Of a stretch of DNA of 64,000 nt, positions 41,904-64,000 are shown in pieces. Origin of the DNA: Picochlorum sp. 'celeri' (taxonomy: Eukaryota > Chlorophyta > Trebouxiophyceae); assembly GCA_010909725.1 (NCBI GenBank), contig JAACMV010000023.1, positions 62,001-126,000 of the forward strand, in the 5' to 3' direction. The translations under genes were made by a program, and so were the position numbers. Within the stretch, counting starts at the first letter, position 1; each line of letters starts with the position of its first letter. The notes below the pieces were generated by a model. That model was given only the letters and a program-made list of their open reading frames with translations. It searched no databases and was not told the DNA's origin.

Positions 41904-43160
41904 TTAATGAGATGTTTCCATAGCCTTGGCACCTTTGTCATGCCACTCATCTGCTTCGCTTGCAGAAGAGTTGTCTGATCCACCTACACTTGGTAACAAG
42001 CAGACGTTTGACTTTTCTGTGATGACAACCTCTTCAAGTACCTCGTGATCCTTTTCAAGGAGTCCGGCAAGATCCTTGTAGGATGCCTGGCACAATGCCT
42101 TTCCAATTTCCTTGCCAGACTCATCGATGAAAGCGACAGCTTCTCCGGATTCAAAGTTTCCTTCGATCCCGTCAATGTGTGCGGCGCTCACCGTGCCATC
42201 CTCCCTGAGTTCTTCCAAAGCTTCTGCAGAGACTTGCACAGTACCTCGGACGGGATTCGAGAGTACCCATCTCTGCCCACCAACAACGGGCTCAGTGGCT
42301 GGGAGGAACAAAGTACCAATCTCCTTTCTCTCCAAAACAACTTGCGGTACAACATCCGGGTCAGCCTGGCAGATGACCATTTTGGTGCCACCCGCAGTGG
42401 CCATGTTGGCTGCAGACAGCTTGGTACCCATACCACCTGTACCCCACTCTGATCCGGCATCTGTGTCTCCTGGTGTCTCAGTTTTCACTTGCAATGATTG
42501 CACATCCTCGACAACCCTGATTGGTTCTGCTTTGGGATCCACGGATGGGTTTGCTGTATACAGAGCATCGACATCCGTGAGCAAGAACAACCAGTCTGCG
42601 TGCACCAGGGTTGCAACCTGGGCAGAAAGGGTGTCATTGTCCCCAATCTTGAGCTGCTCAATGGCAACTGTATCGTTCTCATTCACAACAGGCACAACTC
42701 CATACTCGAGCAGTTCCTGAAATGTATTGACAGCATTCGTATACTGTTGCTTATCAGATAAATTGTCCAATGTAAGCAACACCTGGGAGCATGTCAGACC
42801 GACAGCAGAAAACAAGTCCTCATAGAATCTCATGAGGTGAACTTGCCCAACTGCAGCCAGAGCCTGTCTCTTCGACAAGTCCTTGGGCTTTTTCTCAAGT
42901 CCAAGTCTCTGGCATCCGACACCGACAGCTCCGCTTGAAATCAAGATAACATGGCATCCGTTGTCCTTTAGCGTTCTCACAGACTCTGCCAACCCCGCCA
43001 ACGCACTGAGATTCAGAGAAGAGTACTCGCTGTTGATCAAGGAAGTCGTACCAATCTTGATCACGACTACCTGCATGTTGTCATGCCTATCGCCAACGCG
43101 TTCGGGTTTTGGGGTGGAGGAATCAGCGCGCAGCTGCTTCAGTTCGTCAATATTCATCAT
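41904..43160 (-). CDS. PROB: glutamate 5-kinase (monofunctional)
   Basis: Single exon, 418 residues. Residues about 28-290 form the amino-acid kinase domain: VVVIKIGTTSLI, HVILISSGAVGVGCQRLG, VVNENDTVAIEQLKIGDNDT, LTDVDALYTANP and GTGGMGTKLSAANMA, all standard for ProB. Residues about 310-390 form a PUA domain (GTVQVSAEALEELREDG, GEAVAFIDESG). It makes gamma-glutamyl phosphate from glutamate and ATP, the first step of proline synthesis. Land plants and animals fuse this enzyme to gamma-glutamyl phosphate reductase (P5CS); here it is separate, as in bacteria and many algae. No clear transit peptide. The about 35-residue C-terminal tail after the PUA domain is Ser- and Glu-rich. Confidence 0.92.
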   Translation of the reverse strand: MMNIDELKQLRADSSTPKPERVGDRHDNMQVVVIKIGTTSLINSEYSSLNLSALAGLAESVRTLKDNGCHVILISSGAVGVGCQRLGLEKKPKDLSKRQALAAVGQVHLMRFYEDLFSAVGLTCSQVLLTLDNLSDKQQYTNAVNTFQELLEYGVVPVVNENDTVAIEQLKIGDNDTLSAQVATLVHADWLFLLTDVDALYTANPSVDPKAEPIRVVEDVQSLQVKTETPGDTDAGSEWGTGGMGTKLSAANMATAGGTKMVICQADPDVVPQVVLERKEIGTLFLPATEPVVGGQRWVLSNPVRGTVQVSAEALEELREDGTVSAAHIDGIEGNFESGEAVAFIDESGKEIGKALCQASYKDLAGLLEKDHEVLEEVVITEKSNVCLLPSVGGSDNSSASEADEWHDKGAKAMETSH

Positions 43161-44025: not shown

Positions 44026-46004
44026 CTACATATCTAACATGCTTCGGAGCGCTGAAAACGTTTCCGGGAGGGTGGGTCCGATGATTGTAACCGTACACGT
44101 GCGTGTCAAGGGTACCCTGTTTGGGTCCCTGGATGCTTCATCTTCTTCTGGCTGCCGTGGTCCATCTGCTGCATCAAATGAGCTACGCTTCAAATGGTGC
44201 AAGGCTTCATACATCTGTTCATGCGTCAGAGATGTTGTCACCGCAGCGATATGGCCAATTCCTGCCGCTGCTGCTGCATGAATGCCATGGATGGAATCCT
44301 CAATCACGATAGCACCCTGTCCACAGCCTTGGCAGTCTAGAATGCTCAGTGCCTCGACATAAACATCAGGGTGAGGTTTTCCACGTGCTACTTGCTGAGC
44401 GCTGACAATACTTTGGGGTTCTATGATGCCCCACAGCTTGGCAGATTGTAGATTGTGCTGGATTTTTGCATGGCTTCCAGAAGAGGCAATGCCAACGAGG
44501 GGCAATGCATGGTCAGGTCGACGGCAAACCCGACATGCATCTTTCATCAGAGATGCTGCACCTGGTATAGGATCTATTCCGGAGGATGTGATGGATGTGT
44601 AGCATTGGTTTTTTGCAGCAGATACCATGTCTACAAGGTGCTCCATCCACCGTGTTTCATCCTCAACGTCTTCCGACAGGGCTACATGCTTGAACATATC
44701 TTCCAGGACATAGGTTCTCATATAGTATTCCAAGCAAGATCGAATATCCATACCAAACACGGGAACGAAATCCTGAGGAAATATGTGAGGAATGTCAAAG
44801 GATGTCACTTGTTGTATACCTTGTCTCAAAGCTTCACAGCTCGCCCTCTCAGAATCGACCAGTACTCCATCGCAATCAAATATAAGACAAATCTGTTTCG
44901 TACGGGTCGCTTTCTTTCCCAGAAGTTTTGGCTGCCTGATGGCAGGCATGGAGACATGGTGGCTTCTTTGCATGTCATTAATATCAAGCTTTGACATGTG
45001 AAGCTGAAAAGCTGGGGTTATCCACTCGGCATCTTCATTTTGCATACCAGACCAATTGTAGCTTCCTAGCCTGGATGCGCATTGATAGCAATAAATCTTA
45101 CCTTGGGTATCCTCTGTGATGGCCTTCATCCACCGAAGAGGTTCAACAAATATGCTCCCAGTGGTAGATTCCCCGTGCGAGTCAGCCTGCCTACTGTTTT
45201 TATGATCTTTTGATTTCTTCCTCCAAGAAAACCCATTCTTACAGGATCCCACAGACACGTCCACCATGATATTGGCTGCTGTTGCCAACACAGCTCTACA
45301 ACTTCTACAACTGTAGAGAATAGAACTCTGCGACGTATCATTGCGCGGATCTCGAAACTCCTTAACATCGAATGCATCTCCTTGGCTTTGGACATCTTTC
45401 GCAGTTTGCCTCGCTCTCAGGGACCTGTATGCACCATGCGTCATGTCATATGAAAACTTCATCTCATGCCACACATCCAACTGATTCAGAAAACCTTGGT
45501 TTGGCGACGCCTGTGGGTATATACGATGTAAATCCTCAAGGCACTGCAATGACGTGGCATCTCTGTTTACATACTCCATCATGTATGCCAATACCAGTGT
45601 GCAACTTCTTGAGACACCTTGTGCACAAACAACCACCACATGCCCTCCTTGTTTTACTGCATTGTGTATGAATCGCGACGATTCTTTAAAGTACTCTATA
45701 ATCAAAGACTCGTCGTCATCTTCGATTTCAATATGCATGCGATGGTCTTCAGCAAAATCGTCGTATCTGCAGGCACGAGGAACTGGGCCCTGAACTGCCA
45801 CCTGCACAGTGACATGTTTGCCGTAATTCATACTCAGGCCAATGCATTGTGCACATAGTAATGTAAAAATGACTTGATCACAGAGAGACGTACAAGTATG
45901 TGAGTAAAATGGCCTTTTTCCAAAGCACGCTCTAAAGCTGGGTTCGACGACCCACTAATGGAAACACCATCCAGTACTCGATCAACCTTACATTCATCAG
46001 CCAT
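44026..46004 (-). CDS. Yvh1/DUSP12-like phosphatase fused to a HAD hydrolase
   Basis: Exons 46004-45894 and 45801-44026 (92-bp phase-0 intron GTACGT...GTGCAG) encode 628 residues. Residues about 6-150 are a dual-specificity phosphatase domain with the C-x5-R loop CAQGVSRS and general-acid region IEDDDESLI. Residues about 190-310 match the zinc-binding domain unique to Yvh1/DUSP12 (CRSCRAVL, FVEPLRWMKAI, CYQCASRLGSYNWSG, WITPAFQLHMSKLD). Residues about 340-600 are a HAD hydrolase of the beta-phosphoglucomutase type: IFDCDGVLVDSE, VGIASSGSHAKI, ARGKPHPDVY, VIEDSIHGI. Yvh1 drives Mrt4 release in late 60S assembly. The phosphatase signature lacks the usual His before Cys (VVVC, not VHC), and one Cys pair of the zinc domain (the C-S-C before the W) is missing. 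HAD substrate unknown. The reading frame is continuous, so this is one polypeptide. Confidence 0.85.
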
Positions 46005-46165
46005 TGCATCATCTATACGATTTAAGATATCTGCTCGAGTGACTCTCTCTCTCTTCAAGTAATGAATGATGATTGATCTGCCTGTGCAAAAAAGATGCAG
46101 GAGGGAGATTCAAAATTGATAACCAGATATCCACAACGAACCCATGTATTTGATATGAAAATGAT

Positions 46166-46297
46166 TTATATGCCTTCTGCGTATATATCAAAGGAATAGA
46201 TCGGTCTTTGGTCGAATTTTGAGAACCAGTCTGCATCGCATGCGAGTGCATCCTCCTCAGATACAACTCTGCGCATTATAGGCGTGGTGGATCCCAT
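46166..46297 (-). CDS. possible 43-residue protein
   Basis: A short minus-strand frame beginning MGSTTPIMRRVVSEEDALAC and ending SFDIYAEGI. Composition is protein-like, and it fills the gap between the Yvh1-HAD gene and the Dbp10 gene, whose ATG is only 17 bp away in the opposite direction. No family recognised. It could equally be chance. Confidence 0.3.
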   Translation of the reverse strand: MGSTTPIMRRVVSEEDALACDADWFSKFDQRPIYSFDIYAEGI

Positions 46298-46314
46298 TGT
46301 AAAGATACAGTAAT

Positions 46315-48880
46315 ATGAATGAAGTAGAATCAAGTGCATCAGAAGGTGATGGGGTGGAGGGTGCCGTAGAGTTTGGGTGGGAGGAGCCAGAAAAGAAAGT
46401 TTCTGGTCGGCGTAAAAAGACTCAAAAGAAGGCCAAGCTGGGGACATTTGGTGCGTTTCCATCATTGTATGACGCTGTGTGACTGGATGGTGTCCAATGT
46501 GGCATTGTGTTTGGATGCAGAGGCTATGGGGCTCTCTCCACTTGTTTTGAAAGGAGTTCGGAGGAAAGGTTTTCGTTTACCAACCCCTATACAACGGAAA
46601 ACCATACCTTTGATTCTTCAAGGGCTAGATATAGTGGGAATGGCGAGGACTGGATCGGGTAAGACTGCGGCTTTTGTGATTCCCCTACTGGAGAAGCTGA
46701 AGGGGCACTCTGCAACTGCAGGAGCAAGGGCATGCATCTTGTCACCGACGCGTGAGTTGGCGCTTCAAACGTACAAAGTTGTACAAGATCTGGGTCGACA
46801 TATGGATTTAAGGACTGCGGTGTTGGTTGGAGGAGATTCCATGGAGGCACAGTTTACAGAGTTGGCAGCATCCCCTGACATCATTGTTGCTACGCCAGGG
46901 CGGTTGGTGCACCATTTAGCCGAAGTTGATGCGTTTAATTTGAAGGCTGTTGAGCTGGTGATTTTTGATGAGGCGGATAGGTTATTTGAGATGGGGTTTG
47001 CGGAGCAATTGACTGAGATTCTTTCTGGGATGTCTAACGCTCGACAGACATTGTTGTTCTCTGCTACAATGCCACGAATCCTTGCCGAGTTTGCTCGAGC
47101 TGGATTGAAGGATCCAGAGCTGATTCGACTTGATGCAGATACCAAAATCTCTCCGGATCTAAAAATGTACTTCTTTCGAGTCCGGGAAGAGGAAAAGGTT
47201 GCAGCATTGGTTTTTCTCTTGAGGGAGGTGATTGAAAAGGGTCAATCAACGATACTATTCGTGTCAACCAGGCATCATGTGGAGTTTTTATGTCTACTAC
47301 TGGATCAAGAACATATATCTGCAGTGCCGGTTCATGGTAATATGGATCAGACAGCGAGAAAAATCAACATGGCCAAATTTAAGGCAAAAAAGGCAGAAGT
47401 TCTTGTCGTCACAGATGTTGCAGCGAGAGGGCTTGATATTCCGCTTTTGGACAATGTCATTAATTATGACTTCCCTCCTAAACCGAAATTATTTGTCCAT
47501 CGGTCTGGTCGCGTTGCTCGTGCAGGTAGACCTGGAACATCCTATAATTTTGTCACTTCTGATGAGCTGGGATATTTAGTTGACTTGCACCTCTTTCTTG
47601 GGCGTAAACTGAATCCTGCTCCCATCCGAAATTTAGCTCAAGCAGCGGAGGAGGTTGAGACAATGGTTGCTGATCCGAATGCTCCACCGCCCTCGGAATT
47701 TGGCAGATTTCCTCAAACAGTCTTAGATCCTCTTGTTGGTCACATAGCAGATGTGATCAACAACGTTCCTGATTTGCTTATACAGCAGCTATCCTTAAAG
47801 AATGCAAAGGCATTGTATATCAAAACGAGGCCACCTGCATCTGCAGAAAGTGCTAGGAGAGCGAAAACGTTCGAGAAAGAAGGCATTCACCCTGTTTTGG
47901 CAGCAGCAGTCCCATCTGTTGCTCTGGGAGGATTGGAAGCACAGGAATCTCTGGCCTCAATTACAGCCTCGCTCCGCTCATATAGGCCATCACAAACGGT
48001 TTTTGAGGCGCAAGTAGCGTCTGCTAGAGCAGGCCAAGGTGCAGGAATGGCCGCTACACCAGGGATATTGGCTGCTGCACCGCATGAGAGAAATCTCGAG
48101 GTAATGAAGATGAAACGAGATGCACACTCCGTCGCGATTGAATCTAGAAAGAAGCAAAAGGCTTTGGAAAATAGTGACAAGGTTGAGGAGGACGAGAATA
48201 AACACCTCGCTGATACTGCAGCCCCACTCAACAGTGGGCGATTTAGAGATGATTCATTTTATTTGTCTCATGAGCCATCTGCTGGCGGCAGAACAGCTGA
48301 ACAGTTTCTCGCCGTTGGATCTGGTGACCAGTTTAAAGACGCTGTCATTGATCTTGGCGGAGAGGATATGGAGGGAGAAGCTCAGCGAAAATCAGCGTCA
48401 TGGCACTGGGATAACAAGTCAAAACGCTATGTCAAGTTGCAGAAAGGAGAGATCATGAAGGCAGGCACAAGAGCCAAGAGCAAATCACAGAGTGGCCCAT
48501 CAAAGATGAATAGAGAGAAGGAAGGAAGCCTTTATAAAAAATGGACTAAAAAGACTAAAATGTCGATTGGCAAGTCAAACGCAGACTCGAGAATTGCACA
48601 AGCAATGGGTGGTAGATTCAAGAGAGGTGGACGTGGCTGGGAGAATCCTCTCAAGCCTGTTGCTGATGATCCAGATGTGCACAAGAGAGCTAGAAACGAA
48701 ATGAAAACTGCGGATCAAGTTAGAAAGCAGAGGAAAGAAGAGCAGAAGAAACGTGAACGGAATATGCCCAAGAAGGCACGGGCACAAACATCTCTTCCAG
48801 GAGGCAGGAAGAAGAACAGTCACAAGGCAATTCCTAATAGGGGCGTCAAAGGCATGCGTGTTAGTAAAAAACGCAAATAA
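46315..48880 (+). CDS. DBP10: DEAD-box RNA helicase Dbp10/DDX54
   Basis: Exons 46315-46450 and 46521-48880 (70-bp phase-1 intron GTGCGT...ATGCAG) encode 831 residues. After a Lys-rich N-terminus come the helicase motifs: Q motif GFRLPTPIQRK, ARTGSGKT (I), PTRELALQ (Ia), TPGR (Ib), DEAD (II, VIFDEADRLFEMG), SAT (III), RGLDIP (V) and HRSGRVAR (VI). Beyond the core, SASWHWDNKSKRYVKLQKGE is the DBP10CT signature, and the tail is strongly basic (KKRERNMPKKARAQ), as in Dbp10. Role: nucleolar helicase in 60S subunit assembly around the peptidyl-transferase region. The splice restores GTFEAMGLSPLVLKG, the conserved entry to the Q motif. TGTAA at 48890-48894. Confidence 0.93.
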
Positions 48881-48917
48881 TTTTACAAATGTAAAAAGCT
48901 CCATGTACCAATTCTAT

Positions 48918-50306
48918 CTATTTTCTTCGCCTATTTGTTGCAACATGCTTTCGTTCATTTGGATTCTTCTTCCACCCACTGTTTAGCAACGTAGCCATGC
49001 TTGGTGGTCCTCCAGCGACAGCAGCAACCTGGTGCCACGTCTCATCCGTGTACTCTGGTGCAAAAGGATCGAGCTGAGCATTCTTTGACGCCTTCTTAGA
49101 CCTCAGTAAATGCTTCTTGGTCAACAATTGATCCTCGCGGAGGATGGGATCATGATTTCTACCGCCCTTGGGTTTTGGGAGACTATACTTTGTTCCTTTC
49201 AGGATATGCTTCTTCCTCACTCCATACTGCTCAGCTCCTTCAGGGGAAATTGTCATTTTCACCTTGTCCAGCGTCGCATTCCCGCAGCGAGGGCAAAATA
49301 ATCTACCAACCTCTTTTGTCACCTGGTTACATGCCGTGCAGCGGAGAACCCATCGCGTCACAGACTGAATCTGCATACCATCAGGCGCAGCAAGCCTGAG
49401 ACCCATCTGGAGAATTACATTTTGCATCGCAAAGTCAGCTGTCATGGAAATCACAGCACTTGTACCTACTGGATGGTCAGCAACAAGGTCCTCCTCCTCG
49501 ATATCACCATCATCTTGGTCACCCAAACTCAAAGGCTGCGCTTCGTCGTCTTGGGCTTCAGCCTCTTCCCTCCTCTGTTCCTTCCTTCTCTCTTTCTTCT
49601 TCATTCTCCTAGCCTTACCTTTATTTTTATACGCCGTCTCCCATGCCCCTTCGTCTTGTTCATCATCATCATCTTCTCTCTCTTGGTCCTCTACTGCCGT
49701 GTGATCTCTTGCATCATCATTAGTGCTTCCCAGGGCCAACTGCTGCACATGTGCAGATACATGACTACCATCCTCACCTTGAATCAGAGCCTGTGCAGCC
49801 TCCTCCTCCTCCTCATTAATACGATCAATATCTGCCCAATCTCCTCCAGACACGCCCCACCCAGGAAGAGCCTTTTCGTCAACAACAGGCTTTGTCAACA
49901 TGGTAGGTGGAGCAGGGCGACTCCGTAAATGATCACTACCATAATATTCCACCTCAATCGTCCTTGCCAGCGCAATCAGACCCATATCTATAGAGGAAAG
50001 AGCGTGCAAATCCCCTGTCTGTCGGGCGAATGCCACAACAGCCTTCATACTCTCCTCACTAGGCTCCCGTGTCTCTATAGTGAAAGGAAGGCTTGCCAGT
50101 GCCTGTCGAGACTCTGAATCCCGGATCTCATGAAGCACCTGAGGAATAGTTACGATAGTATCGTAATTCTGCTTCAAATTTAGCAACCCATTTCTCTGAA
50201 TTATTGCATTCGCGTCGATAACTGCAACAGGCGACTGGTTGCATGTGCATGGGCCATCTTTCTCTTTGGCCGGCGGTTCCGCCTTTGCAATGGCAGCCCA
50301 ATTCAT
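48918..50306 (-). CDS. NOB1: NOB1, 20S pre-rRNA endonuclease
   Basis: Single exon, 462 residues. Residues about 25-135 are a PIN domain with its acidic metal-binding residues (VAVIDANAII, PQVLHEIRDSESR, TGDLHALSSIDMGLIALA). An acidic/basic low-complexity region follows (EDDDDEQDEGAWETAYKNKG). Residues about 320-370 form the zinc ribbon CTACNQVTKEVGRLFCPRCG. The C-terminus, SLPKPKGGRNHDPILREDQ, is diagnostic of Nob1. The enzyme cleaves site D to form the 3' end of 18S rRNA in the cytoplasm. Its stop is 37 bp from that of Dbp10, and its start is about 200 bp from the divergent carotenoid dioxygenase. Confidence 0.93.
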   Translation of the reverse strand: MNWAAIAKAEPPAKEKDGPCTCNQSPVAVIDANAIIQRNGLLNLKQNYDTIVTIPQVLHEIRDSESRQALASLPFTIETREPSEESMKAVVAFARQTGDLHALSSIDMGLIALARTIEVEYYGSDHLRSRPAPPTMLTKPVVDEKALPGWGVSGGDWADIDRINEEEEEAAQALIQGEDGSHVSAHVQQLALGSTNDDARDHTAVEDQEREDDDDEQDEGAWETAYKNKGKARRMKKKERRKEQRREEAEAQDDEAQPLSLGDQDDGDIEEEDLVADHPVGTSAVISMTADFAMQNVILQMGLRLAAPDGMQIQSVTRWVLRCTACNQVTKEVGRLFCPRCGNATLDKVKMTISPEGAEQYGVRKKHILKGTKYSLPKPKGGRNHDPILREDQLLTKKHLLRSKKASKNAQLDPFAPEYTDETWHQVAAVAGGPPSMATLLNSGWKKNPNERKHVATNRRRK

Positions 50307-61037: not shown

Positions 61038-64000
61038 ATGTCTGTTGGACTGAAAGATTTTTTGCCTGGTTGGTTGTCTGGGCAGGACGGTCAACAACTG
61101 AGGCGTGTGGCTTCCATTGGGGATGGAGAGATCGTTTCAGCGGCCTATGGTACGTCATGTTACACTGTATCCTTGTGTGAACATCCCTGGTAGGATTGAA
61201 CTGCGCTATGGAATCATGCATTTGAATATTTGGTTGTGCAGATGTGTCACAGGACATGTGGAGGCATGATGTTGTTGTGACTGCAGAGTCACATCAAACG
61301 TGCTCGTTGTCGGCAGAGTACCGGTCATTTTTGAGCAGCATAGCAAGGAAACTGGCGTCCAAAGAGGCCAATGGCTCTTCCCTCCTGATGAACCTAGGGC
61401 CGGTGTGGAATGATGTGCTTGATTTGAAAACATGTGTGTGGCAGATGCAAGACTGTGTGTGGGAGAGTCCATCGGGGTTGGGGATATGTCCATTGGATAC
61501 TTTAGCGAGCATTTGTGGTAGAATTCATGAGCATATGGCTCGGATAAAGAATCCTATGGTCATTCTGCATGCTCATACATGTACTGGTACTGGGTCCCAG
61601 GTTGCTTATTTCATTGTTGTGGCGCATCATATATTCTCAGCTGGCGTGGACTCCGTGGGTGATGCAGTGCTATTGATTCAAAAGCATCGAAATGTTTTAT
61701 CAATGGATTCCGCCTCGATCGTGGGTTTGCTGCCTGCCCAGAAGCGATACTGTGAATATTTGTCCTGGATTTTGCATCACCCTCACGTGGTTCCTGATCA
61801 TGGTGCCGACTATCTGTTGACTCGTGTGAGATTTCGCATGCTACAAGCTTTTCATGTTCAGCCAGGGGGTGAAGAGGAAGGCTGGAGGCCAGAACGGTTG
61901 CTCATGGGCGTGTACTGTGGTGGGAGGCAGGTGTGGTCAGGTGGGGTGTGTCCTGGATCCATCGTGGATGATGGCGATACATTAGATTTCGATATAGACG
62001 GAACGGGAGAGTATGACAGAGGTGTTTGTATGTCTGGGGATGTGGTGATTGCAGTCTGGTTCAATGATCACAAGTCGCGTTGGACGCCTCCTCGACTGGC
62101 ATATGCTTTTCACGCATCATTTATGGCATGTGAAGAGGAGGGGCATGAAGGAAAGGTGCGACTTTTCGCAAGGCATTTGGATACACCGGATACGTCGATG
62201 AGCTACCGAGATCTTGCGGAGAAGGAAGGATTTTGGATGGAGATGGAGTTTGAGAGCCTCAGGAGGACTGCTGGTGTGTCTTCCATAAGGGATGAGTGGG
62301 TCGAGACCATGAGGCAGACTGGTGGTCATTTGAAATTGCGGGATGATCATATCCATAGTGACCCAATGAGACGTATCGTGGCTGAAATGAAGAGCGCTCA
62401 TGGGCTTCAAAATGGTTCTGGTGACACCGATGTGCTTGTGGTTGAAGAGCATGAAACAGAAGAAGAAGGGATACCTCGTACTGATCCCGAGATGTTCAAC
62501 GAATGGAATGACAAATGCCAACAAGCGCTGACGGATTTAAAGATGCATTTATCAGCAGCACGGGGGCTTTTTCCTGATGATGACGATGTGGTCAGAGAAG
62601 AAGACACTATTGAGGAGCCCAGAGAGGAAATATCAGATGGAGCTGGGGATGAAAACATGCAGAATAGCTACGCAGAATCGCTTTCAGTAGATCAGGAAGG
62701 ATGCAAGGTATCTGATGCATCATATGGAATATCTGGGTTTTCAACAGGGAGCAAGTCTCCACCGCCACCTCCTCCTCCTATGCCTGGTTCTAGTGGAGGA
62801 AACAAATCTCCAGTGCCATCTCCACCACCCATGCCTGGTTCTTCAGCTGCAGGGAGCAAGTCTCCACCACCACCTCCTCCTATGCCTGGTTCTAGTGGAG
62901 GAAACAAATCTCCAGTGCCATCTCCGCCACCCATGCCTGGTTCTTCAGCTGCAGGGAGCAAGTCTCCACCGCCACCTCCTCCTCCTATGCCTGGTTCTAG
63001 TGGAGGAAGCAAGTCTCCAGTGCCATCTCCACCACCCATGCCTGGTTCGAGTGGAGGAAGCAAGTCTCCAGTGCCATCTCCACCACCCATGCCTGGTTCT
63101 AGTGGAGGAAACAAATCTCCAGTGCCATCTCCGCCACCCATGCCTGGTTCTTCAGCAGCTGCAGGGAGCAAGTCTCCACCGCCACCTCCTCCTCCTATGC
63201 CTGGTTCGAGTGGAGGAAGCAAGTCTCCAGTGCCATCTCCACCACCCATGCCTGGTTCTTCAGCAGCTGCAGGGAGCAAGTCTCCACCGCCACCTCCTCC
63301 TCCTATGCCTGGTTCTAGTGGAGGAAACAAATCTCCAGTGCCATCTCCGCCACCCATGCCTGGTTCTTCAGCTGCAGGGAGCAAGTCTCCACCGCCACCT
63401 CCTCCTCCTATGCCTGGTTCTAGTGGAGGAAGCAAGTCTCCAGTGCCATCTCCACCACCCATGCCTGGTTCTTCAGCAGCTGCAGGGAGCAAATCTCCAC
63501 CACCACCTCCTCCGCCCCCACCAATGTCTGGATCAAAAGCAGACAGAACACCAGCAGAGACGGGCCCTGTTACAACTCCTGGAAAGCCCAAGCCACCTAC
63601 CCAAGGATTGCAGACACCTAAAAATGAGGGGCCAAAGTATCGTTCCATTTTTTGGAAAAAGAGTTTTCTGCGTGGAGGAACAGTATGGTCTGATATCAAT
63701 CCAGTTCTGGACTTGAATAAAGTAGAAATGGACTTTTTGCATGAGTTGTTTGCTGCCAGAGAAGCAAAGCAGAACACTCCTGTGTCGCAGTCAAAACCTG
63801 TGGCATCAACCCCAGAATTCCAAATTGTGCAAGATTTGACGAGAGCAAATAATATTTCCATCATGCTGAAATCCTTTGCTTTGTTTGGTTCGCCCTCGGA
63901 GATCAAAATAGCAATCCTGCAAGGCAGTGAGAAGCTGTCAGAAAGGCACCTGGAGCAGCTCAAACAGATGATTCCGAGACAGCAAGAGCTCGAAGCAATC
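61038..64000 (+). CDS. formin with PTEN-C2-like N-terminus (partial, class II-like)
   Basis: Exon 1 61038-61149 and exon 2 from 61242 to the right edge (92-bp phase-1 intron GTACGT...GTGCAG) give 957 residues with no stop, so the gene continues. Order: MSVGLKDFLPGW; a PTEN-like phosphatase fold (about 60-260) with degenerate loop LHAHTCTGTGS instead of HCxxGxxRTG and SASIVGLLPAQKRYCEYLSW; a C2-like domain (about 265-365, GDVVIAVWFNDH); an acidic linker; a Pro-rich FH1 region (about 535-800); and the start of FH2 (GPKYRSIFWKKSFLRGG, NISIMLKSFALFG). PTEN-C2 plus FH1-FH2 defines plant class II formins, which nucleate and elongate actin filaments; the N-terminus can bind membrane phosphoinositides. 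Confidence 0.85.
62744..63525 (+). repeat. FH1 minisatellite of alternating Pro-rich units
   Basis: In-frame tandem array inside the formin gene. Two unit types, about 45-60 bp each, alternate: KSPPPPPPPMPGSS followed by GG or AA(A)G, and KSPVPSPPPMPGSS. Around fifteen units are nearly identical at DNA level, differing mainly in the GG/AAG/AAAG linker, in N or S before K, and in Pro run length. The antisense strand and another frame also stay open across it, as expected for a repeat without stops. Confidence 0.9.

Follow-up and report, generated by a model that had tools for sequence, protein, structure and literature searches.

A probable Yvh1/DUSP12 orthologue extended by a HAD hydrolase domain in Picochlorum sp. 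'celeri' and other green algae

The window analysed here is a 64,000-nucleotide stretch of contig JAACMV010000023.1 (contig C23) of Picochlorum sp. 'celeri', and all coordinates refer to it. Its minus strand carries, from 46004 to 44026, a gene with one 92-nt intron that encodes a protein of 628 aa, in which a dual specificity phosphatase (DSP) domain and the zinc-binding domain (CRD) of Yvh1/DUSP12 are followed by a HAD hydrolase domain. Yeast Yvh1 helps to finish the large ribosomal subunit, as described in the available text of PMC7463738. The features of the gene are listed below; residue numbers are those of the open reading frame (ORF), and pLDDT is the predicted local distance difference test score.

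45894..46004, minus strand: exon 1, codons 1-37 including the start codon; DSP N-terminus MADECK...THIL; same junction in P0001 and P0002
45802..45893, minus strand: intron, 92 nt, GT...AG, phase 0; same intron in the contig C3 allele, with one base different
44026..45801, minus strand: exon 2, a single open frame with the remaining DSP, CRD, linker, HAD, tail and stop
45427..45801, minus strand: exon 2 portion of the DSP domain; Pfam DSPc, 73.7 bits; yeast YVH1 match
45604..45630, minus strand: active-site loop of the DSP, VCAQGVSRS; Cys and Arg kept, Val in place of the HCX5R His
44968..45336, minus strand: Yvh1 CRD, predicted zinc-binding; both CxxC pairs kept, one His and three Cys ligands gone
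45298..45315, minus strand: first CxxC pair, YSCRSC; zinc ligands retained
45079..45096, minus strand: second CxxC pair, IYCYQC; zinc ligands retained, yeast C307/C310 by alignment
45022..45042, minus strand: QNEDAEW, where the CxC pair (yeast C324/C326) is lost; rRNA-stacking Trp (yeast W329) kept
44893..44967, minus strand: CRD-HAD linker, predicted flexible; pLDDT <50 at residues 292-308
44197..44892, minus strand: HAD hydrolase domain, subfamily IA variant 3, beta-phosphoglucomutase-like fold
44848..44883, minus strand: HAD motif I, IFDCDGVLVDSE; nucleophile and general-acid Asp
44470..44490, minus strand: HAD motif II, IASSGSH, by alignment
44359..44388, minus strand: HAD motif III, ARGKPHPDVY, by alignment
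44284..44307, minus strand: HAD motif IV, VIEDSIHG; metal-binding acids
44029..44196, minus strand: C-terminal tail, common to the nearest relatives, short or absent in the other aligned ones; partly folded in the model

As the first-pass annotation of this DNA had proposed, the frame runs unbroken from the DSP domain through the zinc domain into a beta-phosphoglucomutase-like HAD. Both the CRD and the HAD lie within exon 2 with no stop codon between them, and the domains are recognized by Pfam (DSPc 73.7 bits against a cut-off of 33.5, HAD_2 63.4 against 23.8, Hydrolase 44.8 against 26.4) and by a phmmer search of PDB sequences, in which yeast YVH1 matches residues 33-290, that is, DSP and CRD, with E 2.4e-24. 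The splice product joins THIL to VAVQG, a junction that is identical, save for A in place of V in P0002, in the two closest proteins, P0001 from Picochlorum sp. BPE23 and P0002 from the JGI entry Picre1 (94% and 87% identity), the latter of which we take to be P. renovo. The assembly comprises 27.4 Mb in 30 contigs, and the phosphatase loci found in it are paired, with near-identical copies, as expected of a diploid assembly. The second allele (L008, contig C3) also encodes 628 aa with an identical domain layout, fused in one exon without a stop. Of the 13 codons that differ between the alleles, 12 lie at or beyond codon 341, with 8 nonsynonymous and 4 synonymous changes, and the remaining one, nonsynonymous, lies before it; none falls on a residue scored as catalytic. 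The Yvh1 half is near-identical between the alleles, synonymous sites included, with the differences skewed to the 3′ part; this low diversity may be only the trace of gene conversion.

A search of proteins for the same fusion, suggested as a check with the first-pass annotation, returned 77 matches, 50 of them with both the DSP and the HAD Pfam domains, and all named ones are green algae: Parachlorella kessleri, Nannochloris, Chlorella sorokiniana, C. vulgaris and C. variabilis, Micractinium, Auxenochlorella, Bryopsis, two Chlamydomonas and Dunaliella tertiolecta. Many other fused matches are environmental sequences, and further classes are presumably represented under JGI codes that we take to denote Tetraselmis striata, Ulva mutabilis, Picochlorum SENEW3 and Picocystis. 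By taxonomy, Picocystis stands outside the core chlorophytes, with Tetraselmis, Symbiochloris and Picochlorum inside. Several fused proteins are annotated by their source as 'dual specificity phosphatase 12', with the HAD unmentioned. Bryopsis also has a second, degraded-looking copy (P0308, BSKO_09375) with an incomplete DSP and without HAD motif I; it seems to share a contig with P0027. No paper describing a Yvh1-HAD fusion was found in the open-access literature, searched by title and abstract start among top-ranked entries, with preprints and most subscription papers outside its scope; the initial statement that no such protein had been described therefore holds for this literature, but the architecture itself is widespread in green algae.

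Among the best 120 of 236 matches to the Yvh1 half, those of land plants, Closterium, animals and a fungus carry no HAD, in agreement, together with the yeast chain, with the earlier statement that known Yvh1 proteins end after the zinc domain. The proteins of Trebouxia, Symbiochloris, Myrmecia and Coccomyxa within the same 120 are also without HAD: Trebouxia P0255 and two similar sequences share a post-CRD tail, and Coccomyxa Yvh1 terminates shortly past the CRD. Close relatives with separate genes had been named at the outset as an observation that would speak against the fusion. Half of this is seen: unfused Yvh1 is present in these four genera, but none of the four is named among the best 120 of 2080 HAD matches, most of which are nameless rows, and they look like cases of HAD loss rather than of split genes, without this being proof. 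The unfused Yvh1 of Symbiochloris irregularis (P0229) apparently has two tandem DSP domains.

The algal protein shares with yeast YVH1 and with human and land-plant DUSP12 a DSP domain with the CX5R Cys and Arg, both CxxC pairs, the Phe and Trp (yeast F260 and W329) described as stacking on rRNA in the available text of PMC6393466, and its being the sole CRD-bearing copy found in the genome, whereas it differs by the C-terminal HAD, by the loss of one predicted zinc site (His and three Cys) and by Val for the HCX5R His. This His is usual rather than universal; in alignment A4, with 51 fused rows in which the DSP loop and HAD motif I are both present, it is found in 29 and missing from 22. The Yvh1 CRD is described as seven Cys and one His that bind two zinc ions (PMC7463738, available text), and the window protein retains four of these eight ligands. 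The zinc domain recognized in the first-pass annotation is thus upheld by homology to the yeast CRD, but it is nonstandard. Among 145 proteins scored (18 more were skipped), the four missing ligands, namely a His C-terminal to the first CxxC, the Cys equivalent to yeast C280 and the CxC of C324/C326, are all present in 88 and all absent in 57, the latter count including P0052, which was mis-anchored by the script; the identity of the ligand His is suggested by this all-or-none pattern. HAD motif I is found in 46 of the 57 and not in the other 11, although P0056 among these has a HAD by Pfam. The named proteins without the four ligands are core chlorophytes, including the unfused Trebouxia, Myrmecia, Symbiochloris and Coccomyxa, and all four are retained in six fused proteins, two of them Picocystis-like and the rest forming the P0046 group. 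The core chlorophytes thus seem to have lost a complete predicted zinc site, its four ligands together, after the fusion, and this apparent all-or-none loss in fused and unfused Yvh1 alike is new here. We read it as the lineage-wide departure of an orthologue and class the protein as a divergent Yvh1, an assignment made because of the tree and the CRD match, not the zinc ligands.

In the available text of PMC9404827 and PMC7463738, the DSP is dispensable and the zinc domain required in Neurospora and yeast, the phosphatase is dispensable for yeast 60S maturation, and no in vivo target of it is given as established. No other gene in the Picochlorum genome matches plant Yvh1 into the CRD. As the sole such match, the Yvh1-HAD protein should perform the Mrt4-to-P0 exchange.

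The HAD passes the cut-off of TIGR01509 (HAD subfamily IA variant 3; 39.7 versus 29.4 bits), and its motifs I-IV are all present in alignment A4 with the residues that we take to be catalytic. It falls below the cut-offs for beta-phosphoglucomutase (TIGR01990, 42 versus 189.4 bits; the broader TIGR02009, 56.6 versus 153.35), HAD inorganic diphosphatase (NF053653, 54.8 versus 245) and hexitol phosphatase HxpB (NF008087, 55.8 versus 191). It thus differs from the characterized variant 3 enzymes (beta-phosphoglucomutase, HxpB, BT pyrophosphatase, CbbY and pseudouridine-5'-phosphatase) in scoring below every equivalog cut-off, in the residues DSE..SC..L, FP.D and G.D, which are invariant across nine algal HADs (alignment A1), and in its fusion to Yvh1. 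The Acinetobacter mannitol-1-phosphate dehydrogenase/phosphatase MtlD, unlike the algal fusion, is bacterial, has its HAD at the N-terminus and has a dehydrogenase partner. The catalytic residues of both DSP and HAD are nearly invariant in the 51 fused rows of A4. The HAD is more similar to the window protein than the DSP is in 14 of 15 relatives chosen for comparison, and it is the best conserved of DSP, CRD and HAD in 11 of the 15. The domain should be a soluble phosphatase, and its fold suggests small phosphorylated metabolites as substrates.

The window protein groups with other chlorophyte Yvh1 in both Yvh1 trees, of 31 and 42 rows, in which the chlorophyte grouping was judged without a non-Yvh1 DSP outgroup. 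The 31-row tree unites the fused and unfused core chlorophytes in a single clade (95/93). A fused-only clade is rejected there by the approximately unbiased (AU) test (p 0.021), and an all-chlorophyte clade is not (p 0.449). The fused label requires five changes on the 42-row tree, of which well-supported branches force at most one. One clade of the HAD tree (99/96) comprises 21 fused-gene rows (of which the models P0059 and P0083 hold CRD and HAD only), three short models and a standalone transcript protein, P0082. This clade, whose internal order is not settled, adjoins two standalone eukaryotic sequences (97/92), with bacteria next. The standalone eukaryotic HADs close to the fused HAD in this tree are P0082, P0086 and P0095, which may represent the pre-fusion state. 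The simplest and favoured reading, though not proof, and with the base of the trees not settled, is a single fusion with later loss of the HAD: it would have arisen once, before the split of Picocystis from the core chlorophytes, and the HAD would have been lost in Trebouxiales and Coccomyxa.

From 44026 to 50306 the window holds three consecutive ribosome-assembly genes, Yvh1-HAD (minus), a DBP10/DDX54 helicase (plus) and NOB1 (minus), for which a shared promoter and co-regulation are possible. These neighbours and two further features are listed below.

46373..48880, plus strand: DBP10/DDX54 helicase; candidate start codon at 46315, 310 bp from the Yvh1-HAD start codon, head to head
48918..50306, minus strand: NOB1, 37 bp beyond the helicase frame
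41904..43160, minus strand: glutamate 5-kinase-like gene (AA_kinase and PUA), downstream of the Yvh1-HAD gene
62692..63963, open on both strands: long Gly/Pro-rich repeat frame

Taken together, the gene is probably the Yvh1/DUSP12 orthologue of this alga, with an active HAD phosphatase added to it: one frame is open in both alleles, the same architecture recurs in many green-algal proteins, and the HAD catalytic residues and the DSP Cys and Arg are intact. Judged from fold and motifs, the HAD would act as a metal-dependent phosphomonoesterase on a small phosphorylated metabolite of the sugar-phosphate or diphosphate class, and would be a second enzyme that works largely on its own, held by a flexible tether. 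That two genes or transcripts merely look fused is scarcely credible; an in-frame Met at residue 295, inside the linker upstream of the HAD, might serve such a reading, but single-exon continuity in both alleles and the 50 two-domain relatives oppose it, several of which (P0008, P0032, P0043, P0046, P0048, P0049 and P0050) lie on sequences of 2.2-2.6 kb with little beyond one frame and are presumably cDNA-like. A retained but catalytically idle HAD, serving stability, dimerization or as a scaffold, is improbable: the domain is missing from some chlorophyte Yvh1 and the allele differences are concentrated in its half of the gene, but the near-invariant catalytic residues and the conservation ranking argue against idleness.

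A functional coupling, in which the HAD on the pre-60S particle hydrolyses a ligand or senses a metabolite and so links 60S maturation to nutrient state, is rather unlikely. The yeast Yvh1 C-terminus is traced over Tif6 towards the Nmd3 N-terminus (PMC6393466, available text), and a C-terminal HAD would thus ride on the pre-60S surface near Tif6/Nmd3. Retention of the fusion in many green algae, the glycogen defects of yeast yvh1 mutants and induction of the yeast gene by nitrogen starvation (PMC7463738, available text), and the position of the gene, which stands head to head with DBP10 and only one gene away from NOB1, are consistent with coupling. The linker, however, varies among relatives and is of low confidence in the predicted model, and Trebouxiales and Coccomyxa keep Yvh1 without HAD. 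This absence argues that coupling to 60S assembly is not obligatory and shows that the HAD is not universally needed. The fuller proposal, that chlorophyte Yvh1 is a metabolite-responsive assembly factor that docks by a one-zinc CRD, and whose HAD near Tif6/Nmd3 hydrolyses or senses a phosphorylated metabolite and ties P-stalk assembly and 60S release to carbon or phosphate state, is unlikely.

Several observations weigh against the favoured reading of an orthologue with an active HAD, acquired once. With half of the zinc ligands and the HCX5R His missing, the Yvh1 half may have changed function. As no NCBIfam equivalog cut-off is reached, the substrate class is only a guess from the fold. HAD identity falls below that of CRD or DSP in 3 of the 15 comparisons (P0001, P0003 and P0036) and ties in one (P0046), and the eight nonsynonymous against four synonymous differences from codon 341 onward do not indicate tight constraint, counts too small for a test. 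The HAD is dispensable somewhere, given the Yvh1 of Trebouxia and its kin. Finally, the 42-row tree neither shows nor excludes a single origin of the fused state, and the AU test was run after its result was known.

The widespread fusion of Yvh1 to a well-conserved second phosphatase provides a tractable handle, in Chlamydomonas and Picochlorum, on whether the factor connects ribosome assembly with metabolism. The apparent loss of one entire predicted zinc site from a conserved assembly factor would likewise serve as a natural experiment to show which part of the CRD Mrt4 ejection requires.
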